Program-made: the position numbers and the translations under genes
In this document: positions 4,764 to 21,319 of the stretch, one piece after another
Layout of the letters: the number at the start of each line of letters is the position of its first letter
Numbering within the stretch: the first letter of the stretch is position 1
Assembly (NCBI GenBank): GCA_020352495.1
Contig: CP070677.1
Coordinates: forward strand, 3,948,090-4,004,360
DNA length: 56,271 nt
Direction: 5' to 3'
DNA from: Candidatus Latescibacterota bacterium
GTDB lineage: Bacteria; Krumholzibacteriota; Krumholzibacteriia; WVZY01
Notes under the pieces: generated by a model
Seen by the model: only the letters and a program-made list of their open reading frames with translations
Database searches by the model: none
Told to the model about the DNA's origin: nothing

Positions 4764-7442
4764 ATGGCCGTTACACCCCAGATCCCAGTTGAGGAAGATG
4801 TTTGGATCCCAACCAGTTGTGGTCAATGTTACTGCATGTGCGGAATCAAGGCTCGCCGGCAAAACGGCGTCATCACCGAGGTGATGGGAAATCCGGATGC
4901 CCCCACCGGTAGAGGCCACATTTGCGTCAAAGGTCTTGCGGCACCGCAACTGCTCTACGATCCATATCGTGTCAACTATCCCCTCAAGCGCACCAATCCT
5001 GAAAAAGGGCTTGGGGTCGATCCGAAGTTTGTGCGCATCTCGTGGGACGAGGCGCTCGACATAGTGGTCGGGAAGCTCAAGGAATGCCACGAACGTGATC
5101 CGCGAGGCGCTTTCTTCCAAGCAACTACGACCCAAGCCTCTGAGATCCGTTTTGGGGTCATCGGCTTTATGAAGGGGTTCGGTACACCCAACTATTGGGT
5201 ATCGGGGGGGGGACTGCACTGCGGCAACGGTGCGCACTTCATGAACGGCAGCATGCATGTGGCGTGGTCGATCATCCCCGACTTTGCCCACTGTAATTAT
5301 GCGCTGAATTTTGGTTGCTCCAAGGGACATGGTGCCGGTCATGTGGCCGTACAAAACGCCACACAGGTCGCCGATGCCCGTGCTCGTGGTTTCGAGAATG
5401 TCGTTTTCGATCCGTTCCAGAGTGCGCAAGCGTCAAAAGCGCACGAGTGGGTGCCGATACGCGTGGGCACCGACGGCGCTCTCGCCCTGGGTTTGGTCAA
5501 CTCGCTTCTCAACGAGCACGGTATCTATGACGCCGAGTACCTGATGTACAAAACCAATGCCCCATATCTGATTCGACCCTCCGACGGGCGTTATATGCGT
5601 GATGGCGACACGAATAAACCGCTTGTCTGGGACCTGGTCGACAACTGTCCCAAGGTGCACAACGATCCGTCGGTCACCCGGGTCGAGTACGAGGATGTCG
5701 CCCATGAGGTCGCATTGAGGGGGACCTACAATGTCAATGGCACCGAGTGCCGTCCGGCTTTCGAGCTCCTGAAAGAACACGTCAAAAAGTACACGCCCGA
5801 ATACGTGGAGAAGATTACATATGTGCCTGCCGCGACGGTCAGCCGTATCGCCAAGGAGTTTGGCGAGGCGGCCGAAATTGGATCGACGGTGACGATCGAG
5901 ACAAGCAAGGGTCCAAAAAAGATTCCCAAACGTCCCGTAGCGACTCACTTCTTCCGCGGCAGCCAGGGGCACACCAACTCGGGTTGGACGTGTCTGTCGA
6001 TCGATATGGTCAACCACATCGTCGGGGCCGCCGACACCTACGGGAGTTCGATGGGGTTGGGTGCGGCGGTTTGCAGCGGCTACGAAGGAACGGGCAAACC
6101 GTACCAGATCCCGTACCCGTGTCCGGACGGACTGCTGGTCGCGGGGGCGTGGGTCTACGACCACAAGCCCTATCCGATGCGTGTGCCAAAGCCGCCGACA
6201 CGGCTCGATCTGCACGACATGTTCCCGACTTCGATCTACAACGCGTTCACCATCACGGACCCCCGATGGTTTGAAATGTTGGAACGGTTCGACATACCAT
6301 ACCGGCCGGATGTCATGATCAACTTTGGCTCCAACTCTGTGATGACGATGGGCAACTCGGAGACGGTCACGGAAAACTTCTTGAAAAAGTTCAACTTTAT
6401 CTTCTCGTTCCAGCTCTACATCACCGAGTTCGAAGAGGCCGTCGCGGACATTGTGTTCCCCGACACATGTTTCCTCGAGCGTTACACACCGGCGGTCAGC
6501 TTCCCATCGACATTCTCGCACCCGCAGGGTGAGGACGATTGGGGCTGGACGATCCGGCAGCCGGTCGTCGAGCCGCTCTTCGAACGGCGCGATTTCAACG
6601 AAGTCATGGTGGATATCTGCAAGCGCATGGGCATCCACGGTAATTTCTACAAGGGACTCAACGATTCGATTGGCGTGCGTTACGGCGGTGAGATGAACGA
6701 GAAGTACAAGCTCGTCGAAAACGGTAGCGTCTTCCACTCGTGGGAAGATATTACCGACCGCCTGTTGAAGGATCGGTTTGGCGATGATCACGGTCTCGAA
6801 GATGTCCGAAAAAAGGGTGTGTTCACCTGGCCAAAGAAGAAAGAAGACGTTTATTGGAAATGGTTCAACCCGTCAAGGGTGCCGATCTATTTTGAGTACT
6901 TCATCGACTCCGGTGAACAGATCGATAAGCTTTGGAACGAGTACGGTGGAAAGGATTTCTTTGACTTCGACTGGTCGCGATTCAAGGCGCTTGCTGACTG
7001 GTATCCATGCCCGACCCACACCGAAAAAAATCCCGAGTACGATATGCACACGTTTTACTGGCGCGCGGTGATGCACTGCAACTCGATGACACAGCAAAAC
7101 CCGTATCTCGATGAGTGCGGACAAGAAGATCCCAACGTCTACGCGGTGCAGATGCACGTGGATACGGCAAAGAAAAAGGGAATCGCCGACGGCGACAAGG
7201 TCTGGTTGGAGAACCCTCAGGGTCATCGGGTCAGGGGGTGGGTCTCGCTTAGTGAGGGGATCGAACCGAGCCACCTGGCCATCGCCGCCGTCGCCGGTCA
7301 CTGGGGCAAGTTCATGCCCATTGCGAAGGGGAAGGGCACGTTTTTCAACGACCTGGTCGAGATGGATCTCGGACATACCGATCCGCTCACATTCAACCAG
7401 GACATATGCGCCCGCGTGAAGATCTACAAGGCAGAAGAGTAG
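4764..7442 (+). CDS. Molybdopterin oxidoreductase catalytic subunit (DMSO reductase superfamily)
   Basis: Catalytic subunit of a complex iron-sulfur molybdoenzyme, 892 residues, binding a [4Fe-4S] cluster and bis-MGD. The N-terminal cluster motif is complete: Cys19, Cys22, Cys26 and Cys54 (C-x2-C-x3-C-x27-C). Later segments such as RISWDEALD, a GSQGHTN stretch near residue 400 and a C-terminal molydopterin dinucleotide-binding domain (around YLDECGQEDP and KGIADGDKVWLENPQGHRV) fit the superfamily. A GGGLHCGNG segment near residue 155 could hold the Mo-ligating Cys. No Tat signal is visible, so the enzyme may face the cytoplasm. The operon order A-B-C(NrfD)-FdhD resembles polysulfide/thiosulfate reductase and phenylacetyl-CoA oxidoreductase (PadBCD) types. 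The substrate cannot be assigned. Confidence 0.92.
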   Translation: MAVTPQIPVEEDVWIPTSCGQCYCMCGIKARRQNGVITEVMGNPDAPTGRGHICVKGLAAPQLLYDPYRVNYPLKRTNPEKGLGVDPKFVRISWDEALDIVVGKLKECHERDPRGAFFQATTTQASEIRFGVIGFMKGFGTPNYWVSGGGLHCGNGAHFMNGSMHVAWSIIPDFAHCNYALNFGCSKGHGAGHVAVQNATQVADARARGFENVVFDPFQSAQASKAHEWVPIRVGTDGALALGLVNSLLNEHGIYDAEYLMYKTNAPYLIRPSDGRYMRDGDTNKPLVWDLVDNCPKVHNDPSVTRVEYEDVAHEVALRGTYNVNGTECRPAFELLKEHVKKYTPEYVEKITYVPAATVSRIAKEFGEAAEIGSTVTIETSKGPKKIPKRPVATHFFRGSQGHTNSGWTCLSIDMVNHIVGAADTYGSSMGLGAAVCSGYEGTGKPYQIPYPCPDGLLVAGAWVYDHKPYPMRVPKPPTRLDLHDMFPTSIYNAFTITDPRWFEMLERFDIPYRPDVMINFGSNSVMTMGNSETVTENFLKKFNFIFSFQLYITEFEEAVADIVFPDTCFLERYTPAVSFPSTFSHPQGEDDWGWTIRQPVVEPLFERRDFNEVMVDICKRMGIHGNFYKGLNDSIGVRYGGEMNEKYKLVENGSVFHSWEDITDRLLKDRFGDDHGLEDVRKKGVFTWPKKKEDVYWKWFNPSRVPIYFEYFIDSGEQIDKLWNEYGGKDFFDFDWSRFKALADWYPCPTHTEKNPEYDMHTFYWRAVMHCNSMTQQNPYLDECGQEDPNVYAVQMHVDTAKKKGIADGDKVWLENPQGHRVRGWVSLSEGIEPSHLAIAAVAGHWGKFMPIAKGKGTFFNDLVEMDLGHTDPLTFNQDICARVKIYKAEE

Positions 7443-7490
7443 TAACACATGAGTCAAGACGTCGCAGAGTCGTTACGAACGGAGTTAGAC

Positions 7491-8117
7491 ATGCCACGCT
7501 ATGGAATGGTCATCGATCTAAAGAGATGCTACGGCTGCTACGCGTGCAGCATGGCGTGCAAAACCGCGAACCACACACCACCGGGTGTTTTCTGGGCCCG
7601 TGTTCTTATGGGCGAGGTGGGCACGTACCCCAATGCCGTCCGTCAAGCCCTTCCCGTATTGTGCATGCAGTGCGAGGAACCGTCATGTATGGAGGTGTGT
7701 CCGACAGGCGCCACGCAAAAACGAGATGACGGAATCGTAATTGTGGACAAAGAAAAGTGCATGGGGTGCAAATACTGCATCATGGCGTGTCCGTACGGCG
7801 CGCGGTATAGCGTGGAGGAATGGGAGAGCTATTTCCCCGATGGGCTTCCGCTGACGCCGTTGGAGGAGTTTCAAAAAAAGGCGTGGGAGGAAAAGTCGGG
7901 TGTCGGAGTGGCGACAAAATGTGATTTCTGTCTGGATCGAATCACCAATGGAAAAGAGCCAGCGTGTGTGGAGGCGTGTCCGGCCAAGGCACGGATATTT
8001 GGAGATCTAGACGATCCCAACAGCGAAGTGTCTATTCTCATAAAGAAAGAGCGGGGACAGGTTTTGAATCCGGAGTTTGGCAACAAACCGAAAGTCTACT
8101 ACCTTCTTCCGAGGTGA
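7491..8117 (+). CDS. Four-cluster [4Fe-4S] ferredoxin subunit of the molybdoenzyme
   Basis: Electron-transfer subunit (B subunit) linking the molybdenum subunit to the NrfD-like membrane subunit. The 208-residue protein carries sixteen cysteines in four groups: CYGCYACSMAC, CMQCEEPSCMEVC, CMGCKYCIMAC and CDFC...CVEAC, the classic PsrB/DmsB/NrfC arrangement. I place the start at 7491 (MPRYGMVIDLKRC), because GGAG lies 7 bases before it and homologues begin similarly. An upstream in-frame ATG at 7449 would add 14 residues and sits only 7 bases after the previous stop with a weak ribosome binding site. No Tat signal is present, as in the catalytic subunit. Confidence 0.93.
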   Translation: MPRYGMVIDLKRCYGCYACSMACKTANHTPPGVFWARVLMGEVGTYPNAVRQALPVLCMQCEEPSCMEVCPTGATQKRDDGIVIVDKEKCMGCKYCIMACPYGARYSVEEWESYFPDGLPLTPLEEFQKKAWEEKSGVGVATKCDFCLDRITNGKEPACVEACPAKARIFGDLDDPNSEVSILIKKERGQVLNPEFGNKPKVYYLLPR

Positions 8118-8174
8118 CAGACGAGAACGGTAGTAAGCCCCGGAATCAACAGAACATCATTTGGGAGAAGCCCT

Positions 8175-9152
8175 ATGGATCCGAAAGTCAATGGTCAGCT
8201 GCAGCGTGAGTGGGGTTGGCTCATCGCCACCTATCTGTTTCTTGGAGGGGTCGGCGGTGGGGCATATACGATCGCCGCGATCAATAGTTTTTTGGGAGAG
8301 AGCCTCGAGCTATCGACGACGGTGGGGTTGTGGATCGCCTTTCCGGCCCTCCTCGTTGGGACGCTCTTTCTCATTGCGGATTTGGGTTCACCAAGCCGGG
8401 CCGTTCTCGCCGGGATGAAACCGAGAACGTCCTGGATCGCCCGTGGCACGTGGATTATTACCATCTTTATGATCTTGTCGTTTCTACATCTGATTCTTCA
8501 TCAATTCACAACTGTCGGTGAGGCGGCCGGCGGAGCCACGGCGATCAACATCATTGCCGTCGGGGGAATCGTGTTCGCCATCGGCACGATGGCATATACC
8601 GGTATCCTGCTCGGTGCGTCCAAAGGGATACCGTTCTGGCGCACCGGTGTGGTGCCCGTTGTCTTTGTGATCTCAGCTGTGGTGACGGGTCACTTCGCCA
8701 TCATGCTTGGAGTGACATTATTGAGCAATACCGCCGACACACTAGTTCCCCTTCGGACAATGGCTCTGGAAGCGGCCGGACTGGTGATTCTGGAGGTGCT
8801 GGCCATATTGTTCTTCCTTCAGGCGGCTTTTCGGCAACCCGACCCAAGGGAATCAGCAGAGCGCATTCTCCGCAAACGTATGTTCGTCATCGGATACTTT
8901 GTTCTGGGTTTGGCCGTCCCGCTCATTCTGATGATCGTTGTGTATCGTTCCGCGCCCGACGCTGCCGCCGCCGGCATGTTCCCCGCCATCACAATCGGCG
9001 CGCTGCTCGGTCTTCTCGGCGGTCTGATTCTCAGGCAGGCGGTTTTGATTTGCGGCGCTTTGCCAACACTCAATATGGCGGGTTTCGAGTTCCGTCGAAT
9101 TCACCGGCCCAAGGAGCCGAAACCGGACATCGGTATGCTCCCACCCCAATGA
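8175..9152 (+). CDS. NrfD/PsrC-like quinone-interacting membrane subunit
   Basis: Polytopic membrane subunit of 325 residues that would exchange electrons between the quinone pool and the ferredoxin subunit. About eight or nine hydrophobic helices can be counted, beginning with LIATYLFLGGVGGGAYTIAA, the typical first helix of NrfD proteins, followed by ADLGSPSRA, a short family motif. A GGGAG precedes the ATG by about 8 bases. It is third in the molybdoenzyme operon, 57 bases after the ferredoxin subunit. Whether the complex reduces or oxidises quinone is not evident from sequence. Confidence 0.92.
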   Translation: MDPKVNGQLQREWGWLIATYLFLGGVGGGAYTIAAINSFLGESLELSTTVGLWIAFPALLVGTLFLIADLGSPSRAVLAGMKPRTSWIARGTWIITIFMILSFLHLILHQFTTVGEAAGGATAINIIAVGGIVFAIGTMAYTGILLGASKGIPFWRTGVVPVVFVISAVVTGHFAIMLGVTLLSNTADTLVPLRTMALEAAGLVILEVLAILFFLQAAFRQPDPRESAERILRKRMFVIGYFVLGLAVPLILMIVVYRSAPDAAAAGMFPAITIGALLGLLGGLILRQAVLICGALPTLNMAGFEFRRIHRPKEPKPDIGMLPPQ

Positions 9153-9221
9153 TGCCGATAATCGGCGAACTCACCACGACCAACGGCAATTCATACAAAG
9201 ACGGAATCCAGGGGGTCGACG

Positions 9222-10061
9222 ATGAATGAGCCAGACAAGCGTCCTGAGGCTCTAAAAAGCGTGCGCGCGGATCGTATCTCGACGGGGGATGCCTCCAAAC
9301 AGTCGGAGGAAGAGGATGTCCTCGTCGTCGAAGAGACTGCGGTTACGATCGATATCGGAGGTTCGGAGACGTACACGGTTTTGTGCACGCCGACCGACTT
9401 GCGAGCGATGGCAGCCGGTTTTCTTTTTACCGAAGGTCTGCTCGAACGAGTGTCCGACATCAAAGCTCTTCGGAAGTGCAAAGACGATCCCCATATGCTC
9501 CGAGTGCAGCTTGCCGGAGACGTACCACGAGATCGTGATGCCGGTCGGAATCTGTTGATCGTTTCCTCGTGTGGGGTCTGCGGCAGTGAAAATCTAAAAG
9601 AACGCCTCGACGCGTTGCCACGGGTGGGCGACACGTTGCGTGTCCGCGCCGAAGTCCTTCGTTCGGTCAACGGCGCCCTTCGAAAACGACAGAAGCTCTT
9701 CGAGGCCTGCGGGGGAACACATGCGGCGGCGGTGTTCGATAGAGACGGGACGATCCTATCCTGTGTCGAGGATGTTGGCCGCCACAACGCCTTAGACAAA
9801 GCCGTCGGAAAGTGTCTGCTTGCCGGCATCGAGACGGCCGGTCGCGGTGTGGCGCTCAGCGGCAGGCTCAGTCTCGAAATGGTCGCCAAGTGCGCGAGGG
9901 TGGGGATAGAGGTGGTCACCGCCGTATCCGCCCCCACGTCGCTTGCGATCGACGTGGGCCGCAGCTGCAACATCACGTTGTGCGCATTTGTTCGTGAGAC
10001 ACGCGCGACAGTGTTCACACATCCCTCTCGTGTGATAGTCGAGGACGATTCCGCAGCTTGA
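9222..10061 (+). CDS. fdhD: FdhD, molybdenum cofactor sulfurtransferase
   Basis: Accessory protein that carries sulfur from a cysteine desulfurase to bis-MGD, giving the sulfurated cofactor needed by formate dehydrogenases and some relatives. The 279-residue protein contains the conserved CxxC pair in SSCGVCGSENL (Cys117, Cys120), TEGLLERVSDI, and the downstream GGTHAAAVFD, EDVGRHNALDK and SGRLSLEMVAK segments typical of FdhD. It has an AGGGGG ribosome binding site and lies 69 bases after the NrfD-like gene. Its place in the operon suggests that the molybdoenzyme upstream requires sulfurated cofactor. That is an inference from context. Confidence 0.95.
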   Translation: MNEPDKRPEALKSVRADRISTGDASKQSEEEDVLVVEETAVTIDIGGSETYTVLCTPTDLRAMAAGFLFTEGLLERVSDIKALRKCKDDPHMLRVQLAGDVPRDRDAGRNLLIVSSCGVCGSENLKERLDALPRVGDTLRVRAEVLRSVNGALRKRQKLFEACGGTHAAAVFDRDGTILSCVEDVGRHNALDKAVGKCLLAGIETAGRGVALSGRLSLEMVAKCARVGIEVVTAVSAPTSLAIDVGRSCNITLCAFVRETRATVFTHPSRVIVEDDSAA

Positions 10062-10137
10062 GGCGAATCACCGCCAAAACTGTGCTATACTGTTGATGGC
10101 AATCATATTTGACCATCGAATCGTACGAGGAGGTTTT

Positions 10138-10683
10138 ATGAAAAGAATCTTACTGGTAGCGATGGTATGTGCGCTGGTGGTAAGCCCGGCATTTGGTCAG
10201 GCGGGGAGCATCGGACTCTTCTCTGATGTCACTGGCACGGACTGCAACTTGTACGATCAACAACAAGGATTGTGTTCTTTTCATATCGTCCACGTGATGT
10301 CACCGGGCGCGACGGCGTGTCAGTTCTCTGCTCCCCAACCGGCATGCCTCCAGGCAACGTATCTTTCGGATACCTTCCCTATCATGGTGGTAGGGAACAC
10401 GCAGACCGGTGTCGCCATCGGTTATGGCGCGTGTGTTTCCAGCCCGATTCACGTGGGAGACATCAACTACTTCTGCCAAGGCCTCACCGCCTCCTGTTGT
10501 TACTACCCCGTGCTTCCGGATCCAAATATCCCATCGGGTCAGATTGACGTCATGGACTGCAATCTCAATCTGGTCTATGCCACGGGTGGTGTGGGGATCA
10601 TCAACCCCGATGAGAGTTGTGAGTGTGATGTTGCCGTTGAGGATTCAACGTGGGGTGCGGTGAAAGCGTTGTACATGGAGTAG
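10138..10683 (+). CDS. Small cysteine-rich secreted protein of unknown function
   Basis: I recognise no named domain. The start at 10138 is set by AGGAGG at 10128-10133; an upstream in-frame ATG at 10093 lacks one. The first 20 residues form a clear signal peptide ending AFGQA. The mature part, about 160 residues, has eleven cysteines, including a CC pair in ASCCYYP and a CEC near the end, and it closes with VEDSTWGAVKALY. I have the impression that this C-terminal pattern recurs in small secreted proteins of FCB-related candidate phyla, but could not check. It is probably extracellular or periplasmic and disulfide-bonded. A TATACT box at 10086-10091 may be its -10 element; no good -35 was found. 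Confidence 0.8.
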   Translation: MKRILLVAMVCALVVSPAFGQAGSIGLFSDVTGTDCNLYDQQQGLCSFHIVHVMSPGATACQFSAPQPACLQATYLSDTFPIMVVGNTQTGVAIGYGACVSSPIHVGDINYFCQGLTASCCYYPVLPDPNIPSGQIDVMDCNLNLVYATGGVGIINPDESCECDVAVEDSTWGAVKALYME

Positions 10684-10806
10684 ACTGCCTTCCAGTCCGA
10701 GTGCCGAAGTCCATCCTCTGGGGAATCATGCGTTCGAACATCGCGGTGTATCCGCGCTTCGGCGTAATCTAGTACGTATGGAAAAGGTAACGATCGTCGC
10801 GGATTG

Positions 10807-10824
10807 CCCGTAAGGGATTACGGG
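10807..10824. terminator. Hairpin between convergent genes, possible bidirectional terminator
   Basis: A perfect 7-bp stem (CCCGTAA / TTACGGG) with a 4-base loop lies between the convergent secreted-protein and CoA-transferase genes. There is no U-run on either side, so termination is only suggested by position. Confidence 0.35.
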
Positions 10825-10833
10825 TTGTGATGG

Positions 10834-12051
10834 CTAGTCCGAGTCAATCACACTCTGTGCCTTCAACGCCTCGATCTGATCGGGTCGGTAGCCCAACACA
10901 TCGGTCAGCACTTCCTCGGTATGTTCGCCAAGAAGCGGTGGGTGCATGCGAACGACACCGGGCGTTTCCGAATTCTTGATCGGAATGCCGGCCAGACGGA
11001 GCGTGCCGATGGTCGGATGGGGCACTTCGACGATCATATCACGGTGTTGCACCTGCGGGTCGGCGAATAGATGTTCCATATTATTGACGGGGCCGCAGGG
11101 GATTGCCGCTTCCACCAGCATTTCCATCCACTCGTCACAGGTCTTTTGTGCGAACAACTCGTCGATGAGCGGCAGGAGCACGTCGCGATTCTCGACGCGC
11201 TTTGCATTGGACCCGAATCGCGGATCATCCAGCCACTCCTTCTTACCGACGAGCCTGCAAAAGTTGACCCACAGTTTTTGGTTCGCCACTGCGATGGCGA
11301 TGGGACGATCTTGGGTGTGGAACACTTGATAGGGAACGATCGACTCGTGAGCCGTGCCCCACCGCGTCGCCTCCTGACGGGCGACAAGGTAGTTGCTGGC
11401 GATGTTGGCAAGACCCGAGATCTGCGCATCGAGAAGGCTGATATCGAGGTACTGCCCCCGCCCGGAGCGTTCCCGCCACAGCAGCGAAGAGGTGATTGCG
11501 CCTGATGCGTAGATGCCGGTGAGCACATCGGTGATCGCCACACCAACCTTACACGGGTTTCCATTTCGCTCACCAGTGATGTGCATCAGACCACCAACCG
11601 CGGAGAGTACCATGTCATAACCCGGCCGGTCCCTGTACGGACCGTCCTGGCCGTAGGCGGTGATTGAGGCGTATACGAGACGCGGGTTGAGGGCGCGAAG
11701 CGACTCGTAGTCCAGACCAAAGCTTCTCATCAAACCGGGTGTGAAGTTCTCTACGAGGACATCGGAGACCTTGGCCATTTCACGCACGAGTTCGGCGCCC
11801 GCCGGTTTCTTGAGATCGACGACAATCGATTTTTTGTTGCGGTTGCAGCAGAGATAGTAGGCGCTCTCACCCCCTGCGAAGGGTGGTCCCCAGGTTCGTG
11901 TATCGTCGCCCGTGCCGGGCCGCTCGACCTTGATCACCTCGGCGCCTTGATCTCCCAGAATCATTGTGCAGTAAGGGCCGGCGAGGATCCGGGACAGATC
12001 GAGTACCCGGTACCCGCTCAGTGGAAGCTCGTTTGTGGAAGTGTTATTCAT
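10834..12051 (-). CDS. CaiB/BaiF-family CoA-transferase
   Basis: Class III CoA-transferase that moves CoA between carboxylic acids. From the ATG at 12051 the protein is 405 residues, the usual family length. An in-frame extension upstream to 12288 is rejected because it has no homology-like content and a promoter lies inside it. The N-terminus GYRVLDLSRILAGPYCTMIL, then VDLKKPAG, ENFTPGLM, RPGYDMVLSAVGGLM (Asp146 is the expected catalytic aspartate) and a C-terminal QVQHRDMIVEVPHP region are all characteristic. The gene stands alone between divergent and convergent neighbours. The substrate is unknown; a link to the nearby molybdoenzyme, some relatives of which act on CoA thioesters, is only speculation. 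Confidence 0.93.
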   Translation of the reverse strand: MNNTSTNELPLSGYRVLDLSRILAGPYCTMILGDQGAEVIKVERPGTGDDTRTWGPPFAGGESAYYLCCNRNKKSIVVDLKKPAGAELVREMAKVSDVLVENFTPGLMRSFGLDYESLRALNPRLVYASITAYGQDGPYRDRPGYDMVLSAVGGLMHITGERNGNPCKVGVAITDVLTGIYASGAITSSLLWRERSGRGQYLDISLLDAQISGLANIASNYLVARQEATRWGTAHESIVPYQVFHTQDRPIAIAVANQKLWVNFCRLVGKKEWLDDPRFGSNAKRVENRDVLLPLIDELFAQKTCDEWMEMLVEAAIPCGPVNNMEHLFADPQVQHRDMIVEVPHPTIGTLRLAGIPIKNSETPGVVRMHPPLLGEHTEEVLTDVLGYRPDQIEALKAQSVIDSD

Positions 12052-12307: not shown

Positions 12308-12336
12308 TTGAATCCACCGCCACACACTCGCATAAT
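12308..12336 (+). promoter_or_regulatory. Sigma70-like promoter for the six-gene operon
   Basis: TTGAAT (12308-12313), a 17-base spacer and CATAAT (12331-12336). The leader to the ATG at 12463 would be about 120 bases. Confidence 0.5.
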
Positions 12337-12462: not shown

Positions 12463-13998
12463 ATGCAGGTTATCTGTATTTCCCGCGGAACACTTACCGG
12501 TGGCAAGGTTCTAGCCGAACGCCTGGCCGGCGCGTTGGGTTACCCGTGTTTGAGCCGCGAGGATCTGATCGAGGCTGCCGTCAAGGAAGGGATCCATGTC
12601 GGCAAGATCGAAATGGCCATGGTCAAGGGAAGAGGATTCAGTGATCGGCTGGTCCTCGAACGTGAACACTATCTTGCCTTCACCCGTGCTTATTTGTGTG
12701 AGCAGGCCCTGAAGGGTCAACTCGTCTATCACGGTCGGACTGGGCATTTGCTACTGCCCGGTGTCGACAACGTGCTGCGCGTGCGCGTGGTGGCGGACCA
12801 GGAATACCGCCTCAAGGCCGCGATGCAGGCGCTCGGACTAGAGAGGGAGAAGGCGCGCCGTTACGTGGAGGAAGTGGATGAGGACCGAAGACAATGGGTC
12901 CACACAATGTACGGCGTATCCTGCGATGACGTCTCCCAATATGATCTGATCGTCAGCCTCCAGCAGTTCAGTGTCGAGAACGCTGCCGCCGGTCTAACCG
13001 CCATCGCCCAGCTCCCCGACTTCCAGATGACACCGGCCTCGCGTCAGGCAGTAGAGGACCTGCGCCTCGGGGCCAAGGCGAGGGTGTTCTTGGCCCGCGA
13101 CGACCGGACATACAGGGCAAGCTTCAAGGTTTCGGCCAGCGACGGTGTGATCACAGTTACCTACCTTCCACAAGATGCCGGTCTGGCCGAGTCGATCCCA
13201 CCGGTGCTGGAATCATTGGAAGGATATCGGTCGATCCGGACCACTATGGCTACTAGCAACATCCTCTGGATTCAGGAAGTCTACGATCCAACATCCGAAG
13301 CATTCCGCAACGTGGTTGAGGTAGCCACCAAATGGGGTGCGGCGGTGGAACTCATGCGACTCGCACCGGGGAGTGCAGAAGGTGCCGCTGCCCCGGGGGA
13401 GGTATTAGAAGCGTTCGACGGGACCATCCCACAGATACAACCTTCCTCGCGTGAATACAACGGTGGTATCGAGGATGACGTGGCGGAGGGCGGGCAAAGG
13501 ACGTGGGCCGAAAATGGGGGATTGAAGCAGACGGTCGAGGAACTCGCGAGGCAGGGTAGGTCGGCGGGAGGCCGTGAAGTCAGAGGAAGCCAGACCCATC
13601 TTCTTGAGATGATCGACCGAAGCGTCCCTTATACGATGGTGGTAGTGGGTGACGTATTCCTCTCGAAGGGCTCCGCCGCCCAGTTGAGGTTGGCACGCGA
13701 GTTCCGCAGCTACCTTGCGGACAACATCAAGACTCCTGTCGTCGCAACGGACGAGCTAAAGGCCCAGTTCCTTTTCGGAAAGCGTGACCTGTTCCGCCTG
13801 ATCGGGTATCTCGCCGTAGTACTTGTGATCTACTTCCTCGTGTTCACTCATCAGAGGCAGATCTTGAGTTTCTTATCCGGGGAGGGATGGGTAATGAAGG
13901 TCGTTGCCGCAGTCGTGGTGTTTTTGTTCGTGCCGATTGTTGCCTATTCGTATGGCACCGTGTCCCGATCGTTCTTGAAACTGATCAAGATCGAGTGA
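12463..13998 (+). CDS. Cytidylate-kinase-like P-loop protein fused to BON-like, USP-like and membrane segments
   Basis: First gene of the six-gene operon, 511 residues from the ATG at 12463, which follows GAGGAG by 6 bases. Residues 1-190 resemble the cytidylate-kinase-like (AAK_33) family: CISRGTLTGGKVLAERLA takes the place of the usual ISRxxGSGG loop, and LVYHGRTGHLLLPGV follows. Residues about 195-260 resemble a BON domain. About 265-460 look like a universal-stress-protein fold interrupted by a low-complexity linker: ILWIQEVYDPTSEA at its start and SVPYTMVVVGDVFLSKGS near its end. Two hydrophobic helices (about 438-456 and 472-492) close the protein, putting the nucleotide-binding part in the cytoplasm at the membrane. 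A true nucleotide kinase would be soluble, so a sensory or regulatory role with the adjacent permease is likelier. Domain calls beyond the kinase are my inference. Confidence 0.85.
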   Translation: MQVICISRGTLTGGKVLAERLAGALGYPCLSREDLIEAAVKEGIHVGKIEMAMVKGRGFSDRLVLEREHYLAFTRAYLCEQALKGQLVYHGRTGHLLLPGVDNVLRVRVVADQEYRLKAAMQALGLEREKARRYVEEVDEDRRQWVHTMYGVSCDDVSQYDLIVSLQQFSVENAAAGLTAIAQLPDFQMTPASRQAVEDLRLGAKARVFLARDDRTYRASFKVSASDGVITVTYLPQDAGLAESIPPVLESLEGYRSIRTTMATSNILWIQEVYDPTSEAFRNVVEVATKWGAAVELMRLAPGSAEGAAAPGEVLEAFDGTIPQIQPSSREYNGGIEDDVAEGGQRTWAENGGLKQTVEELARQGRSAGGREVRGSQTHLLEMIDRSVPYTMVVVGDVFLSKGSAAQLRLAREFRSYLADNIKTPVVATDELKAQFLFGKRDLFRLIGYLAVVLVIYFLVFTHQRQILSFLSGEGWVMKVVAAVVVFLFVPIVAYSYGTVSRSFLKLIKIE

Positions 13999-14029
13999 GG
14001 CTTGGGACACTGCGCCCAGGAGTTAGAGT

Positions 14030-15136
14030 GTGAATTTCCTGCTTACAAACTTCATAGAGTTGGATCTCGTGACCGCCCTGCAGGTGATCCTGCTGGGGTT
14101 CATCGGTGGAACGCTCAGTGGGTTCATCGGGAGCGGTGGGGCCTTTTTCATGACCCCGGGGATGATGAACCTTGGCGTCCCTGGGATTGTGGCCGTCGGC
14201 AGCAACATCACGCACAAATTCGGTAAGGCGATGATGGGGTCGAAAAAGCATAGGGAGCTCGGCAATGTAGACCGGCGGCTGGGCGCTTTCCTTGTTCTGA
14301 CGTCCTTCATTGGCATTCGAATCGCCGTGTGGATCAACAGCGCGCTGTTCGAAGGCGGAGGGGACGGCCACGGTAGCGGCACGAGCGCCGCATCAAACCT
14401 CTACATCAGCGCAGTATTCATATGTATCCTCTCCGTTGTGGCGATATCGATGCTGCGGGATGCTCTCCGATCCCGCGACACTACGGCCGCAGACGGGCCC
14501 TCTAGAAAAATCGCGAACTTATTGGCCCGGCTCCACATGCCTCCTGACATTCGGCTGCAGGTGGCGGACGTCAGGGTTTCCCTGTGGGTACTCCTCGGGG
14601 TGGGTCTCGCCACCGGGTATTTAGCCGGGACAATCGGCGTGGGGGGATTCATCGGTGTGCCGGCCATGATCTACGTGATCGGTGTCCCTACCGCTGTGGC
14701 CGCCGGGACTGAGCTGTATCTCGCCATGTTTATGGGAGCGTTCGGAGCGGTCAACTATGCTTACGGTGGCTTTGTGGACATCCGGTTGACGCTCCTTTTG
14801 TACCTGGGTTCTCTGGTGGGACTCTTCATCGGCGCCTACGGGACCAAGGTCGTGAAGGAGGTCATGATCCGCAGCGTCACCGGAGTAACCATTCTCCTGT
14901 GTGTCGTAAGCCGGTCCGTCGCCGTTCCCGCCTACCTCCGTCAGCTCGGATGGATCGACATGAATCCGGAGTGGGATGCTTACTTCAACCAAGCCAGCAA
15001 AGTCATGCTGTTCGTGGCGGGTTTCGTCGGCGCCGGAATCATCCTGTACAATGTGACCAGAGCCTACAAACGGCGAAGGCGCATTGTTGCCACACTGATC
15101 GAAGCGCCGAAGCCCTCCGCCGGTTCTCATGGGTGA
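14030..15136 (+). CDS. TauE/SafE-family membrane permease
   Basis: Membrane protein of 368 residues in the sulfite/organosulfonate exporter family, which moves sulfite, sulfoacetate and other small anions. The start is GTG at 14030, preceded by AGGAG at 14018-14022. Two internal repeats show the family motif: GFIGSGGAFFMTPGMM in the first half and GTIGVGGFIGVPAMIYVIG in the second. About eight membrane helices are apparent, with a charged cytoplasmic loop between the halves. It lies 31 bases after the kinase-like gene and ends 5 bases before the next start, so it is firmly in the operon. The substrate is not evident. Confidence 0.92.
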   Translation: MNFLLTNFIELDLVTALQVILLGFIGGTLSGFIGSGGAFFMTPGMMNLGVPGIVAVGSNITHKFGKAMMGSKKHRELGNVDRRLGAFLVLTSFIGIRIAVWINSALFEGGGDGHGSGTSAASNLYISAVFICILSVVAISMLRDALRSRDTTAADGPSRKIANLLARLHMPPDIRLQVADVRVSLWVLLGVGLATGYLAGTIGVGGFIGVPAMIYVIGVPTAVAAGTELYLAMFMGAFGAVNYAYGGFVDIRLTLLLYLGSLVGLFIGAYGTKVVKEVMIRSVTGVTILLCVVSRSVAVPAYLRQLGWIDMNPEWDAYFNQASKVMLFVAGFVGAGIILYNVTRAYKRRRRIVATLIEAPKPSAGSHG

Positions 15137-15141
15137 CTTTC

Positions 15142-16725
15142 ATGAACTGGTTTCACAGGATCCTTCACCGCTCCAGCCAGAGAGAGGATGCGATTCTACT
15201 GCTCAACCTGCGTTGCACGCGGTTCCGTCAACTCGTAAGAAACTATGGCAAGATCTTGGACGCGCTCGCCGATGCCGCTGATAAGCAGGGAGGAGACTAC
15301 ATCCTCGACAGGCAATACACCGTTTCACTATCTGAAGTCGTGCTCGATCTAACCGAGGCCATAATTTTCGACCTGAATATCCTGGCGGGAGACCGCTACG
15401 ATTCGTTTTATCACCTGCTCGATCGATTCCGGTCAGAGGTCCGAGACACCATCGCTATGGAGAACGGGGTAGACGGGCCTCCGAGTTCGGGGATGAGGGA
15501 GGCCGCGAAGGTTCGAACACCCACGTCCACGGAGGCGTTGAACAAACTCGCCAAGGCCATTGCGGAATCCCGGGTGCTCTATGAGCGTGTGGGACGGGTC
15601 GCCTGCCGGGGAGTGGCCGCTGGTCCCGTCTTCAATCTGGAGACCGAGGACAGTGCGGACGCGTTTACGGAGGGGGCGGTGATGGTTGCCTCGGACATCG
15701 TGCCGGATGACGAGTTCATCCGGCTGATGAGGCAAGCGTCGGCCATTCTCATCGATCTCGGGGAGCCCGCCGGGGATGCCGCAACGTTGGCAAGAGAGTT
15801 CGGAATTCCGACGATCGTGGGACTCGCGGACGCCAGCAAGCGGCTGGAGACCGGATCCGAGGTCACAGTTGACGCGGACGAAAATACCGTCTATCAAGGC
15901 TGGATCCAGGAACTCCTCGAGTATTACAAAACCGAGCGGCTGGATCAGGAGGAGGAGACGGAATACAGGATCTTACGTAGACTCAGACGGCTGATGTTCG
16001 CTCTGACGCTCGAGAAGGATGCCGAAACCGGCGCGGAACTCGGCGATTGCAGGACCCTCCATGATCTCGTTCATGTCGCCCACGAACTAGCGGGCGACGC
16101 CCAGTTCGAACTGATCACGAACCTCCGCGATTTCAAAAAGACGTCCACGAACCTCGTAACCATCAGCAACATTCCTTTCTACGTAATCGATGTGGGGGGT
16201 GGGCTGGCCCAAAGCGATCGGGGCGCAGCCAGTCCAGACGTGACCGAGATTAGCTCCCTCCCCATGCGTATGTTTGTCCACGGGATGGATCAGATATTCC
16301 GGGAAGGACCGCAAATGCCTCAACCCGGTGTCTTGCCGTTGTCAGTGATGGCCACGGTCACTGAGGAGCATGCTAACATGATCGTCCAACAACCCGGCGG
16401 CTTTGATATGGTCGACTCTATGATCGGCGAAAGCAGGGATTCCAATCACATCTACTGTCGCTTTGCCTCCACGACCCAAGGAAACGAGGACAAAGCCGTG
16501 CGCGGGGCGGTGGCCTGCGAGATACTTTCGCGGCTTGATTTTGCGGCGGCCCAAACGACCCGGGCCACCGCGGCGTGGCTCAGTGGGGTTCCCCGAAGCG
16601 ATATGGAGGAGCGCCTCACGATCATCGGCCGCCTCGGCGCTTACCTACTGGAAGCGGATGCTACCGGATGGGATGGGACTTCGAGAGACGCGTATGTGAA
16701 CACTTTCATAACCCGGCACGTATAG
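15142..16725 (+). CDS. PEP-utilizer-like protein with catalytic His replaced by Asp
   Basis: A 527-residue protein, third in the operon. I start it at 15142 (GTG at 15133 is possible); longer frames overlap the permease gene. Residues 1-100 are helical (LNLRCTRFRQLV, DLNILAGDRYDSFYHLL). Residues about 145-250 form the mobile swivelling domain of PEP synthase/PPDK enzymes, but the segment that reads GGxTSHAA in active enzymes is GEPAGDAATLAREFGIPTIV, so the phosphoryl-carrying His is Asp212 (GAT codon). No ATP-grasp domain is present. Residues about 280-527 form a C-terminal domain that resembles the end of the 859-residue protein two genes downstream. It is probably a regulatory paralogue of that protein rather than an enzyme. 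Confidence 0.85.
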   Translation: MNWFHRILHRSSQREDAILLLNLRCTRFRQLVRNYGKILDALADAADKQGGDYILDRQYTVSLSEVVLDLTEAIIFDLNILAGDRYDSFYHLLDRFRSEVRDTIAMENGVDGPPSSGMREAAKVRTPTSTEALNKLAKAIAESRVLYERVGRVACRGVAAGPVFNLETEDSADAFTEGAVMVASDIVPDDEFIRLMRQASAILIDLGEPAGDAATLAREFGIPTIVGLADASKRLETGSEVTVDADENTVYQGWIQELLEYYKTERLDQEEETEYRILRRLRRLMFALTLEKDAETGAELGDCRTLHDLVHVAHELAGDAQFELITNLRDFKKTSTNLVTISNIPFYVIDVGGGLAQSDRGAASPDVTEISSLPMRMFVHGMDQIFREGPQMPQPGVLPLSVMATVTEEHANMIVQQPGGFDMVDSMIGESRDSNHIYCRFASTTQGNEDKAVRGAVACEILSRLDFAAAQTTRATAAWLSGVPRSDMEERLTIIGRLGAYLLEADATGWDGTSRDAYVNTFITRHV

Positions 16726-16806
16726 ACCGCAGTTCCGTCGGTGAACAAAGCGGTTCTGACGACGAATGCGATGTAGAGACGCAAGAGAAAAAAAGGAGAA
16801 CCGTCC

Positions 16807-17208
16807 ATGAATGGCAGCCTCCAGATTATGTTGGTGGATGACGAACCGATCGTGGGAAAACGACTCAAGCCAGCTCTGGCCAAGTACGGGTTAGAAGTCG
16901 AGGTGTTCGAGGACGGCCCGGGGGCACTGCGAAGACTTCGGGAAAAGGAGTTCGATATCGTCGTGACCGACGTGAGAATGGAGGATGTGGACGGAATGCA
17001 GGTGCTCGAGTACGTGCTCGCCAATTCCAAACGCACAAAAGTCATCATTATCACCGGATACGCCACCGTGGAGGTTGCCCGCGAGGCCTTGGTAAAGGGG
17101 GCGTTTGATTTCATTGCCAAGCCCTTCAAGCCGGACGATCTACGGGCGGTGATAGACAGGGCCGCAAAAGCCCTGGGTCACCCGGGGATCAGGAAGTCCG
17201 ACGATTAA
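16807..17208 (+). CDS. Stand-alone receiver (CheY-like response regulator)
   Basis: Single-domain receiver of 133 residues, with no DNA-binding or enzymatic output domain. Phosphorylation residues are complete: the acidic pair in VDDEP (Asp11, Asp12), the acceptor Asp55 in VTDVRM, Thr83 in IITGYA and Lys105 in AKPFKP. AGGAG precedes the ATG. The stop overlaps the next ATG by one base, so it is translationally coupled to the PEP-synthase-like gene. The likely phosphodonor is the histidine kinase at the end of the operon. Output must come from protein contact, perhaps with one of the PEP-type proteins. Confidence 0.92.
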   Translation: MNGSLQIMLVDDEPIVGKRLKPALAKYGLEVEVFEDGPGALRRLREKEFDIVVTDVRMEDVDGMQVLEYVLANSKRTKVIIITGYATVEVAREALVKGAFDFIAKPFKPDDLRAVIDRAAKALGHPGIRKSDD

Positions 17209-19787
17209 TGACAGTACCATCGGCCCTCTCGGATTATTCCGAGCCGGAGGTGGGAGGCATGCGGTTCAAACCACGAGGTGTTTCAGGAGACTCGACCCGA
17301 ATCGATCCGATTCACCGGCGCAGCCGCATCCTGCGCCGCTTCCTAGCTGCCAACAGCGAGTTGTTGGAACTGATGGCGGACCTCGAGACCGACCTCAATC
17401 ATCTGGAACCTGGTGAGTCCCACATCCGACAACCAATTCTCCGGCTCCTCGAAGGATCGCTTCTCCTTGCAGAGAACCTGAATCTGCTGACACGCGACAG
17501 GCACAAGGCCCTTTACGACGCCCAACGGACCATCGAGAAAGAGGTCCGCGGATATCTCAGTGCCGCTGCTCCGTCGGCTGATCGGCCGCTCGTGATCCCC
17601 CTGGACAAGGCAAGCAGTGGGAAAGTGCGGGACGTGGGGGGGAAAGCGGCACGACTCGGCGAACTCCGAGTCGTGATGTCTGAAATTGTCCCACCGGGTT
17701 TTGTGATTTCCACATCCGCCTACCGGCTATTCCTGGAACGGAACAATCTCCATGAACAGATTCGGGGACTCCTCAAAGACCTTAGCTTTATCACCGAGCG
17801 AGATCTCTTCCGCGAGCGCACAGCTACTGTCCGCTCGCTCGTGGAGGCGAGCCCTGTTCCTCGGGAAGTGGCGGAAGCCATTGCCAACGGAATCATGCAG
17901 TTTCCTTTACCGTGGCCCTCCCACTGGGCCGTCCGGTCCAGCGCCGTCGGAGAGGACGGCCGCTTGAGCTTCGCTGGGCAGTTTGACAGCTTTTTGAATG
18001 TACCACGAGACGAGCTGCAGGACGCTTACAGGAAGGTGATCGCCAGCCGCTACGCCGACCGGGCGGTGTTGTACCGGCTGGCGGGAGGGTTCACAGAGGT
18101 GGACACACCCATGGCAGTTCTCTTTATGCCCATGCTCGATGCCCAGTCGGCAGGAGTCTTGTATACGCGGGATCCGGCCGACGAATCCGCGGACCTGATG
18201 CTGATCAACTCGGTTCACGGGCTGGCGGACCAGCTGGTTCAGGGGCGTGCACTGGCCGACATCTTCGTGGCGAGTCGAAGCCAGCCGTGGAAGGTGGTCG
18301 ATCAACAACTGGCCACTCGCCCCAAGATGCTCACGACAACCGTCGAAGATGGTGGTGACCGGACCGCGCCTTCCGAATCCTGCGACGGTCCTTCTCTTTG
18401 CGGAGAGGACCTGCGGCTCCTCGTGGAGATCGGCCTCAAAATCGAGCGGCGCTTTGGACGGCCCCAGGACATTGAGTGGGTGCTCACGAAAGAAGGACGA
18501 CTGATGGTGGTTCAGGCGCGCCCGCTGCGAACGGAACACCGCCCTGTGCACGGGGGACAGTCCGTTGAAGTTCGCAACGCGCTGATGGAAGGAGGAGTGA
18601 CCATCTTTCCCGGACGCACGGTCGGCCCGGCCTATGTTGCTCGCACTTCCGAACAACTCGCGGAAGCCCCCGAGAGGGCCATCCTCGTCGTGGAAGACGC
18701 CACACCGGAGATCGGTGCGGCAGTTCCGTTTCTGGCGGGTCTCATTTCAGAACGTGGCAATCCTGGCGGTCATGCAGCCACGCTTGCCCGTGAATTCGGG
18801 GTGCCCTCACTTTTTGGGGTCGAGGGGGCCATCGATCTTCTCCAGACCGGACAGGTCCTCAGCATCGATGCAACACACCGGAAAGTGTTCGAAGGAGCCC
18901 TCTGGCCCGAAGTGGAAGAAAGGGTCGAAGTGAGGATGCGGCGGGCCCGCACGGGCGAATCGGTCGGCCCGCTCCATGATTGGCTGCTCACCCTCAATCT
19001 GACCGACCCACTCTCCGTGTCGTTCCGCGCGAGCAAGTGCCGGTCCGTTCACGACATCATTCGTTTCGCCCATGAGAAAGTGGTGGCTGCGGTATTCGAC
19101 TTGGGAGACGAGGCCGTCACGCGAGGACAGAAGGCGGTGCGGCTGGATTCCAAAGTTCCGTTGGGTCTAACGGTGATGGATCTCGGGGGAGCCTTTCCGA
19201 AAACGGATAAGCCCAGGCGATCGTTGACACCCGAGGAGATCGACTCACGACCTTTCCAGGCTCTGTGGCGAGGAATCGCAGATCCCGCTGTGAGTTGGGC
19301 GGGCCGCAGCAGGGTCAGTGTGTCCGGCTTTGCATCGGTGATGGTCAAATCCGTGACCGATCCCTATGGTTCGATCCGCCAGCTAGGAGAGCGCAACTAT
19401 CTGATCGTCTCTCCCGAGTATCTGAACCTCAATGCCAGGCTGGCCTATCACTTCGCCATGGTGGATGCGTTCGTATGCGAAGTTCCGGAAAACAACTACG
19501 TGAACTTTCGATTCCGCGGCGGTGCCGCGAGCGCGGAAAGGAGGGATCTTCGTGCGCGCTTCCTCGCCGAGGTTCTCCTCAATTCGAAGTTCGGCGTGAA
19601 CCGGCGCGGGGATCTTGTCACCGGCTGGCTCCGCCGTCATTCCAGGAATGAATCGGAAGAAGGGCTCGCCCTGCTCGGCAGACTCATGGCCTGCGCCCGC
19701 CAACTCGACATGTTGATGGACAACAAAGGAGCTCTCGATCGCTGTGTGGAGCGATTCCTCGAGGGGAATTATCAGGAATTCGCGTAG
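17208..19787 (+). CDS. PEP-synthase/PPDK-like protein with shared N- and C-terminal domains
   Basis: An 859-residue protein with an intact ATP-grasp (PPDK_N-type) domain at about 125-445: VRSSAVGEDGRLSFAGQFDS, SAGVLYTRDP and GRPQDIEWVL followed by LMVVQARPL. The swivelling domain (about 460-565) keeps the phosphocarrier His522 in GNPGGHAATLAREFGVPS. The PEP/pyruvate barrel of true PEP synthase is absent; instead there is an unassigned region (about 580-859) with CRSVHDIIRFAHEK, VMDLGGAF and NNYVNFRFRGG, matching the end of the 527-residue paralogue. Residues 40-120 are helical and also match it. It could phosphorylate its own His from ATP, passing phosphate to an unknown partner. Chemistry is inferred. 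Confidence 0.88.
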   Translation: MTVPSALSDYSEPEVGGMRFKPRGVSGDSTRIDPIHRRSRILRRFLAANSELLELMADLETDLNHLEPGESHIRQPILRLLEGSLLLAENLNLLTRDRHKALYDAQRTIEKEVRGYLSAAAPSADRPLVIPLDKASSGKVRDVGGKAARLGELRVVMSEIVPPGFVISTSAYRLFLERNNLHEQIRGLLKDLSFITERDLFRERTATVRSLVEASPVPREVAEAIANGIMQFPLPWPSHWAVRSSAVGEDGRLSFAGQFDSFLNVPRDELQDAYRKVIASRYADRAVLYRLAGGFTEVDTPMAVLFMPMLDAQSAGVLYTRDPADESADLMLINSVHGLADQLVQGRALADIFVASRSQPWKVVDQQLATRPKMLTTTVEDGGDRTAPSESCDGPSLCGEDLRLLVEIGLKIERRFGRPQDIEWVLTKEGRLMVVQARPLRTEHRPVHGGQSVEVRNALMEGGVTIFPGRTVGPAYVARTSEQLAEAPERAILVVEDATPEIGAAVPFLAGLISERGNPGGHAATLAREFGVPSLFGVEGAIDLLQTGQVLSIDATHRKVFEGALWPEVEERVEVRMRRARTGESVGPLHDWLLTLNLTDPLSVSFRASKCRSVHDIIRFAHEKVVAAVFDLGDEAVTRGQKAVRLDSKVPLGLTVMDLGGAFPKTDKPRRSLTPEEIDSRPFQALWRGIADPAVSWAGRSRVSVSGFASVMVKSVTDPYGSIRQLGERNYLIVSPEYLNLNARLAYHFAMVDAFVCEVPENNYVNFRFRGGAASAERRDLRARFLAEVLLNSKFGVNRRGDLVTGWLRRHSRNESEEGLALLGRLMACARQLDMLMDNKGALDRCVERFLEGNYQEFA

Positions 19788-19813
19788 GATCGGAGGATAA
19801 TCGAAGGCGGATC

Positions 19814-21319
19814 ATGGACTATTCAGCACCGGACGAACGCCCTATCACTGATGCTGTCAAAACCGAGGCGCAACGGGCTCTGAAGGAACGCCCGAGCTTT
19901 TCGATTCGTACGCGAATCATTCTCGGATTTCTCATGCTTTTTCTGTTTAGCCTGGGTATCAACATCACGTCGGTAATCATGTTAACACGCATCCAGAGCA
20001 AGCTCGGATTTCTGGAATCCGCGAGCAGCTACACATTCGAAGTCCAGCAGGCCCGCCGGTTCGAGAAAAACTACTTCTTGTATCGGACAAACCTGGCCGA
20101 CGCTCGGGAACACACCTACCGTGCGAGGGAGATCCTTGAGGGGGACAGGGAAGAGATGGCCTCCGTTGTGGGTGTTGCCCATTTCGAAACGATGGCGCGT
20201 CATGTGGATCGTTACGAAGAACTTTTGAGTAGGCTCGAAGAACCGAATGAGAAACGCGGGGGTGACTCGCCGCCTTACGAAGAAATCGAGGAAGAGCTTC
20301 GCGAACACGGCGCGGAAATGATCTCAGTTGCCGGGCAACTGTTGGCAAAGGAACGCGAGTCCGTAGAGAACATGCTTCAGGCATCCAAACGGATCTTGAT
20401 CTTTATTATCCCCGTGCTGTTCATCGTGATTGTTTATGTTGCCAACTTCATTGCCCGACAGATGCTTCAGCCCTTGAACCGGCTCATGGCGGACACGCGT
20501 CGTATTGCCGATGGAGATTTCACACCCATTACGCCGCGCCGTCGCTATCGGGACGAATTCACGGAGTTGGCCATGGCCCTCAATCACATGTGGCACCAAC
20601 TTGTTCACCGCCATGATCTGCTCGTCCAGGCACACAAGCTCAAGGCGGTCGGTACACTTACCGCTGGTGTGGCGCATGAACTCAACAACCCGATCAATAA
20701 CATCATGCTTACGGCATCCATGCTCGAGGAGGACTACAAGAGTCTGTCGGATCGAGAACGGCTCGACATGGTCAGAGATCTCCTCGACCAGGCAGAACGG
20801 TCCCGGATCATTGTCCGCAGTCTCCTCGACTTCGCTAGGGAGAGCGAGTTGAAAACCGGCCTCCTTCAGATCCGGGACCCGATCGAGGACGTTCTCCAGC
20901 TTACATCGAACCAGATCAAGCTCTCAAAAGTAAAGGTCGTCCGACAGTTCGCGGCAAACCTCCCGCCATTCCATGGAGACCCGCACCAGATCAACCAGGT
21001 ATTCCTGAATCTGGTGCTCAACGCCATTGACGCGATGCCTCATGGCGGGACCCTCACTGTCACCACCAGAATCGCTGACGAGCGAGACTACATCATGGCG
21101 GAAATCACCGATACCGGTGTGGGGATCCCGGAGCATGTGCTTACCAATATCTTTGACCCGTTCTTTACGTCCAAACCCACAGGCAAAGGTACCGGCCTTG
21201 GGCTTTCGGTTTCTCTGGGGATCATCCAGAAGCACGGTGGGGAAATCCGGGTGCGAAGCCGTACCGGCGAGGGCACGACTTTCACGATACTGCTGCCCAT
21301 GGCCAAGGTACCGGCCTAG
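19814..21319 (+). CDS. Membrane sensor histidine kinase with HAMP domain
   Basis: Last gene of the six-gene operon, 501 residues. A first membrane helix (about residues 35-58), a helical periplasmic sensor region of about 135 residues, a second helix (about 195-215) and a HAMP linker are followed by the dimerisation/phosphotransfer domain with VAHELNNPINN (His288). The ATP-binding domain has NLVLNAIDAM (N box), DTGVGIPEH (G1), FDPFFTSKPTGKGTGLGLS (F and G2 boxes). The catalytic core is of the NtrB/nitrogen-type family. The obvious partner is the stand-alone receiver two genes upstream. The periplasmic part has no domain I recognise, so the signal is unknown. Confidence 0.94.
   Translation: MDYSAPDERPITDAVKTEAQRALKERPSFSIRTRIILGFLMLFLFSLGINITSVIMLTRIQSKLGFLESASSYTFEVQQARRFEKNYFLYRTNLADAREHTYRAREILEGDREEMASVVGVAHFETMARHVDRYEELLSRLEEPNEKRGGDSPPYEEIEEELREHGAEMISVAGQLLAKERESVENMLQASKRILIFIIPVLFIVIVYVANFIARQMLQPLNRLMADTRRIADGDFTPITPRRRYRDEFTELAMALNHMWHQLVHRHDLLVQAHKLKAVGTLTAGVAHELNNPINNIMLTASMLEEDYKSLSDRERLDMVRDLLDQAERSRIIVRSLLDFARESELKTGLLQIRDPIEDVLQLTSNQIKLSKVKVVRQFAANLPPFHGDPHQINQVFLNLVLNAIDAMPHGGTLTVTTRIADERDYIMAEITDTGVGIPEHVLTNIFDPFFTSKPTGKGTGLGLSVSLGIIQKHGGEIRVRSRTGEGTTFTILLPMAKVPA

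Follow-up and report, generated by a model that had tools for sequence, protein, structure and literature searches.

A cytidylate-kinase-like protein, an anion permease, two proteins related to PEP synthase and a two-component pair are encoded one after another in the genome of a Candidatus Latescibacterota bacterium, which raises the question of whether these genes form a real unit and, if so, how a sensor, a dikinase and a permease might work together.

Layout of the operon and the A-B pair

We analysed the 56,271-nucleotide stretch of DNA that carries these genes (the window), and its ORF calls confirmed a six-gene operon on the plus strand at 12463-21319. The gaps from gene A to gene F are 31, 5, 81, -1 and 26 bases; the D/E overlap reads TAATG, in which the start codon of E lies over the stop codon of D. 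These coordinates agree with an earlier note on this DNA, which had described six tightly packed same-strand genes with gaps of 5-81 bases and a one-base overlap. The operon is flanked upstream by a gene for a family III CoA-transferase and downstream by one for a UDP-glucose/GDP-mannose dehydrogenase, both on the opposite strand. The operon had also been placed behind one good promoter. A promoter-like site does occur on the plus strand at 12308-12336 (TTGAAT-17-CATAAT, 9/12 matches), but sites of this type were found 5 times in 12.8 kb against 4.8 expected from shuffles, which is not above chance and removes the ground for that claim. Further upstream, genes for a molybdopterin oxidoreductase, an Fe-S protein, NrfD and FdhD lie in a row as a respiratory complex (4764-10061, plus strand), and a 196-residue ORF without a Pfam match, whose 5' part is signal-peptide-like, is located between FdhD and the CoA-transferase (10093-10683).

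Gene A (12463..13998, plus strand, 511 aa) carries a Cytidylate_kin2 domain at residues 3-165 (Pfam PF13189, 2.8e-31), a weakly BON-like stretch at residues about 196-258, a region without domain assignment at residues about 290-440, and two C-terminal transmembrane stretches predicted by hydropathy. Its P-loop in the window is GTLTGGKV, a motif that is not kept in the orthologs (16 full-length sequences). Compared with (d)CMP/cytidylate kinases, the orthologs do not conserve a Walker A P-loop with Ser or Thr at its end, and A scored 21.4 against the cut-off of 102.1 of the equivalog TIGR02173. Judged from these sequence features, A is probably a membrane-bound pseudokinase. The BON domain that had been assigned to A retains a weak profile match (OsmY, E=0.0011 over profile positions 196-258) and has no Pfam BON match. 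The USP part assigned to it was rejected, since Pfam Usp matched 0 of 17 A orthologs and hhalign gave a probability of 0.2% for A against the neighbouring USP-like proteins.

Gene B (14030..15136, plus strand, 368 aa) encodes a TauE/SafE (TSUP) anion permease with 8 hydrophobic segments by hydropathy, and it matched PF01925 at 2.8e-35, with 122.6 bits against the curated cut-off of 32.6. All 15 B orthologs that scored above 430 bits adjoin a full-length A. Counted from the side of A, where only genes whose sequence continues on the B side were testable (n=15), the same TauE subfamily adjoins A in 15/15 loci, and a receiver then follows. By sequence comparison, B is a member of the TauE/SafE family that differs from it as a subfamily of its own, tied to A. 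In its 4.3 Mb, the host genome has just 4 TauE genes that pass the family cut-off. A second A-like gene, limited to the N-terminal part, is paired with a TauE gene at another locus of the host genome (L133, 8826-11157), where a small conserved protein adjoins them.

Domains of the dikinase-like protein E, its paralog C and the two-component pair

Gene E (17208..19787, plus strand, 859 aa) encodes a PEP-synthase-like dikinase with Pfam matches to PPDK_N (4.2e-67) and PEP-utilizers (3.7e-15). An N-terminal helical domain, which is also present in C, was delimited from the AlphaFold2 model and alignments at residues 34-120 (17307..17567). It is followed by the ATP-grasp (PPDK_N) domain at residues 142-445 (17631..18542), with conserved K146, R243, E423, Q436 and R438, and by a swivelling mobile domain at residues 488-557, in which the family alignment predicts His522 (18771..18773) as the phospho-carrier. 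The C-terminal domain, at residues 590-859 (18975..19784), replaces the PEP/pyruvate TIM barrel; all four features are on the plus strand. Across 99 E proteins the catalytic residues of ATP-grasp are conserved, the position of His522 is His in 98, and the C-terminal domain, some 270 residues long, is invariant at H615, H622, H748, R782 and D834.

No Pfam match and no significant PDB sequence match were found for the C-terminal domain. Because structure matches of the full-length E model were dominated by PEP synthase and rifampin phosphotransferase, we folded this domain alone. The resulting AlphaFold2 model had a pLDDT of 86, and Foldseek gave no match to PDB or viral structures at E<=0.001; as modelled, the domain matches no solved fold. 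E thus has ATP-grasp and the swivelling phospho-His domain in common with PEP synthase, pyruvate phosphate dikinase and rifampin phosphotransferase, whereas the N-terminal helical domain is an addition and the C-terminal domain is unrelated to the TIM barrel of PEP synthase and PPDK or to the rifampin-binding domain. The assignment of E as an ordinary PEP synthase was rejected, since its score with the equivalog TIGR01418 was far under the cut-off (248.9 against 739.75 bits) and no fold match was obtained. Two related proteins were also seen, a 636-residue E paralog whose C-terminal part runs into X (L024, host genome 1112000-1131000, at 9469-11379) and a C-terminal-domain-only protein, again with a run of X, whose gene precedes those of a histidine kinase and a receiver (L025, 9852-10769).

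Gene C (15142..16725, plus strand, 527 aa) is an E paralog with a PEP-utilizers mobile domain by Pfam. It keeps the N-helical, PEP mobile and C-terminal domains of E, and ATP-grasp is absent. In the alignment of GEPAGDAATLARE against GNPGGHAATLARE, the codon for residue 212 (15775..15777, plus strand) encodes Asp where the catalytic His of the mobile domain would stand, a replacement that speaks against C as an active swivel-type phosphocarrier. C therefore looks like a dead paralog of E, so that the two PEP-type proteins listed in the earlier note are both present and are not equivalent. C-like genes in the same place in four other loci (L163, L166, L171, L173) and elsewhere in two more (L031, L034) have lost the mobile domain too; what their proteins retain is the N-helical part together with a C-terminal domain that has degenerated. 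Gene D (16807..17208, plus strand, 133 aa) encodes a receiver domain only, with a Response_reg match (Pfam PF00072, 1.6e-29) over residues 7-116 of 133 and no output domain. Gene F (19814..21319, plus strand, 501 aa) encodes a membrane sensor histidine kinase, in which hydropathy predicts two transmembrane stretches with about 145 residues between them, followed by the HAMP, HisKA and HATPase_c domains (Pfam).

Gene order in other phyla and the Desulfovibrio nitrate cluster

Members of the Desulfobacterota and Myxococcota show the gene order of the window, A-B-(C)-D-E-F, again. Two loci read A-B-C'-D-E-F (L163, L166), one reads A-B-D-E-F (L034), and two read A-B-C-D up to the contig end (L171, L173). 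Since the same order is found in other phyla, the six-gene set is beyond chance assembly and is a real conserved unit; the search for co-occurrence that the earlier note had proposed thus found the families adjacent in other genomes. Full-length A was present in 2 of the 80 genomes from the host's phylum, in 10 of 395 from the phylum to which L102 belongs (Thermodesulfobacteriota by name) and in 4 of 237 from that of L034 (Myxococcota by name). Of the 15 A-B loci read, 12 showed no E in the interval that runs from the receiver to F or to the end of the contig (three of the 12, L123, L171 and L173, are cut there), indicating that the A-B-D-F core can do without E. This means that E modifies the core without defining it. 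In the E tree, the window protein groups with those of L163, L166, L034 and L030 (support 100), and three more bacteria of the host's family have E-like genes that fall elsewhere. The patchy distribution suggests horizontal transfer or loss.

We also scanned named genomes for the C-terminal domain of E with a three-sequence alignment as the query, a seven-sequence one being too divergent. The scan gave 164 places, and the best 80 of them were mostly in Deltaproteobacteria. Of these best 80 of the 164 places, 41 have a TauE gene within 8 kb of E, 44 a receiver and 48 a histidine kinase. A small receiver was found directly beside E in 40 of 98 cases.

It had been held that none of these families normally work together and that no described pathway has this set. 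However, TauE, histidine kinase, receiver and PPDK_N protein are found together in a published nitrate cluster, DVU0251-DVU0245 of Desulfovibrio vulgaris and Dde_0597-0605 of D. alaskensis (Korte 2014, PMC4001038). DVU0251-0245 encodes TauE, a hypothetical protein, PtxB, a histidine kinase, a receiver, a PPDK_N/PEP-mobile protein and a dual-specificity phosphatase. D. vulgaris transposon mutants of the TauE, receiver and dikinase genes grew equally with or without 100 mM nitrate, G20 mutants were mildly sick on thiosulfate, and a leaky thiosulfate transporter was proposed by Korte et al. 2014 (PMC4001038). We found the order TauE-x-PtxB-HK-receiver-E-phosphatase in 9 of the 10 Desulfovibrionales loci read (L206-L215), far past the two strains of that paper, and the gene set of the nitrate cluster, by Pfam, in one further locus (L088). 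Among 120 Desulfovibrionales genomes, the E family was present in 107, with up to 8 matches per genome, and the dual-specificity phosphatase in 68.

The nitrate cluster and the window operon have in common a TauE protein, a membrane histidine kinase, an output-less receiver and a PPDK_N plus PEP-mobile protein, and in both the receiver gene adjoins the dikinase gene. Judged by gene order (L206-L215) and gene set (L088), the dikinase of the nitrate cluster belongs to the E family and has the same C-terminal domain. The two differ in that the cluster contains a PtxB-type periplasmic protein, a conserved hypothetical protein and a dual-specificity phosphatase, none of which is among the six window genes, whereas A and C are found in the window operon and not in the cluster. 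Moreover, the cluster TauE is of another subfamily than B, its histidine kinase has PAS, and its E protein falls in another clade. Apart from the nitrate cluster of Korte 2014, no other description of this gene set was found in the papers searched. Taken together, the window operon is a conserved variant of the nitrate-cluster kind, not a set without precedent. The E family is widespread in Desulfovibrionales, yet it has no assigned reaction and carries a domain that lacks a solved relative. Its presence in a nitrate-resistance cluster of sulfate reducers bears on the control of oil-field souring, and linking the cluster phenotype, so far an orphan, to a TauE/kinase/receiver core that several phyla conserve makes it testable as a signalling pathway.

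A possible route from sensor kinase to permease

We tentatively favour the reading, at slightly below even confidence, that the sensor kinase/receiver pair acts via the His-swivel dikinase to set the activity of the TauE-type permease. From the domains and the gene order, F would sense a periplasmic signal and phosphorylate the stand-alone D. Because D has no output domain, its output would be a protein contact, and the closest candidate partner is E, because the E start codon overlaps the D stop. As the conserved residues and known relatives suggest, ATP-grasp of E would load the beta-phosphate of ATP onto His522, and phospho-His522 would swing to the C-terminal domain and hand the phosphate to an acceptor there. 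C may compete for, or scaffold, the contacts of E. The end point would be the permease B, always paired with the putative membrane pseudokinase A, and D and E would set its transport activity, not its transcription. A narrower version is in our judgement on the doubtful side: here the receiver would be the switch of a His-swivel enzyme whose acceptor domain is new, and this enzyme would phosphorylate an operon protein (e.g. the A-B pair) to gate the permease.

The invariable A-B pairing, the conserved gene order, the catalytic residues of E and the TauE, receiver and histidine kinase genes near E all argue for the sensor-to-permease reading as a whole. By analogy, so may the nitrate cluster, where mutants of the TauE, receiver and dikinase genes share one phenotype, nitrate resistance. 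The suggestion of the earlier note that the receiver and the PEP-type proteins control the permease survives to the extent that it fits these phenotypes (PMC4001038). Against the sensor-to-permease reading, E went undetected in 12 of the 15 A-B loci, and the common Desulfovibrio phenotype could come from transcription polarity or from a metabolite made by E. Other PPDK-derived enzymes whose roles have changed offer analogous precedents: rifampin phosphotransferase; HpeHI, which acts on small molecules (PMC12167813); and VadK of Mycobacterium tuberculosis, for which the abstract reports autophosphorylation, a role as a regulatory histidine kinase and control of a pathway (PMC13400623). VadK is PPDK-derived like E, and the abstract links it to neither a receiver nor a TauE permease.

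The metabolite alternative can be spelled out: B would move a small anion or organic acid, E would phosphorylate the substrate or its product in the C-terminal domain, and F and D would only signal the presence of the substrate. The characterised relatives with a swapped third domain (rifampin phosphotransferase, HpeHI) do act on small molecules, the invariant residues of the C-terminal domain resemble an active site, and the multiple copies per genome would fit a variety of substrates. However, other metabolic enzymes are not conserved with the set, and both the frequent position of E directly beside a small receiver and the C paralogs, which have lost the catalytic parts but not the C-terminal domain, suit regulation better, so that we consider a metabolic E unlikely. 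The genes may instead share no more than stress induction, with D acting on a distant partner such as the sigma-54 regulator often nearby and E acting independently. A sigma-54-type response regulator does occur near the operon in many loci, and E is missing from many A-B-D-F operons; in the window, however, no such regulator adjoins the operon, the pairing of the receiver with E and of A with B holds across phyla, and the mutant phenotypes of the Desulfovibrio TauE, receiver and dikinase agree, which makes mere co-induction quite improbable. Ordinary phosphoenolpyruvate synthesis, with the operon as a carbon-metabolism island, would account for the PPDK_N and mobile domains and for PEP synthase as the best match of E, but the shortfall at the equivalog cut-off and the replacement of the PEP/pyruvate TIM barrel by a domain without a PDB match leave it hardly credible. 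A sulfite or sulfonate catabolic operon was rejected because sulfonate enzymes are absent among the six genes. If the narrower version of the sensor-to-permease reading is true, its receiver-switched dikinase would be a new kind of signal output and a new form of transport control, widespread in sulfate reducers.

A second arrangement of the E family was also observed in sulfate reducers. It consists of a histidine kinase, a sigma-54-type regulator, TauE, Alph_Pro_TM (PF09608), E, a receiver and a protein of ~275 residues without assignment, and it was seen in L033, L041, L047, L051, L078, L093 and others, with parts that vary by locus.
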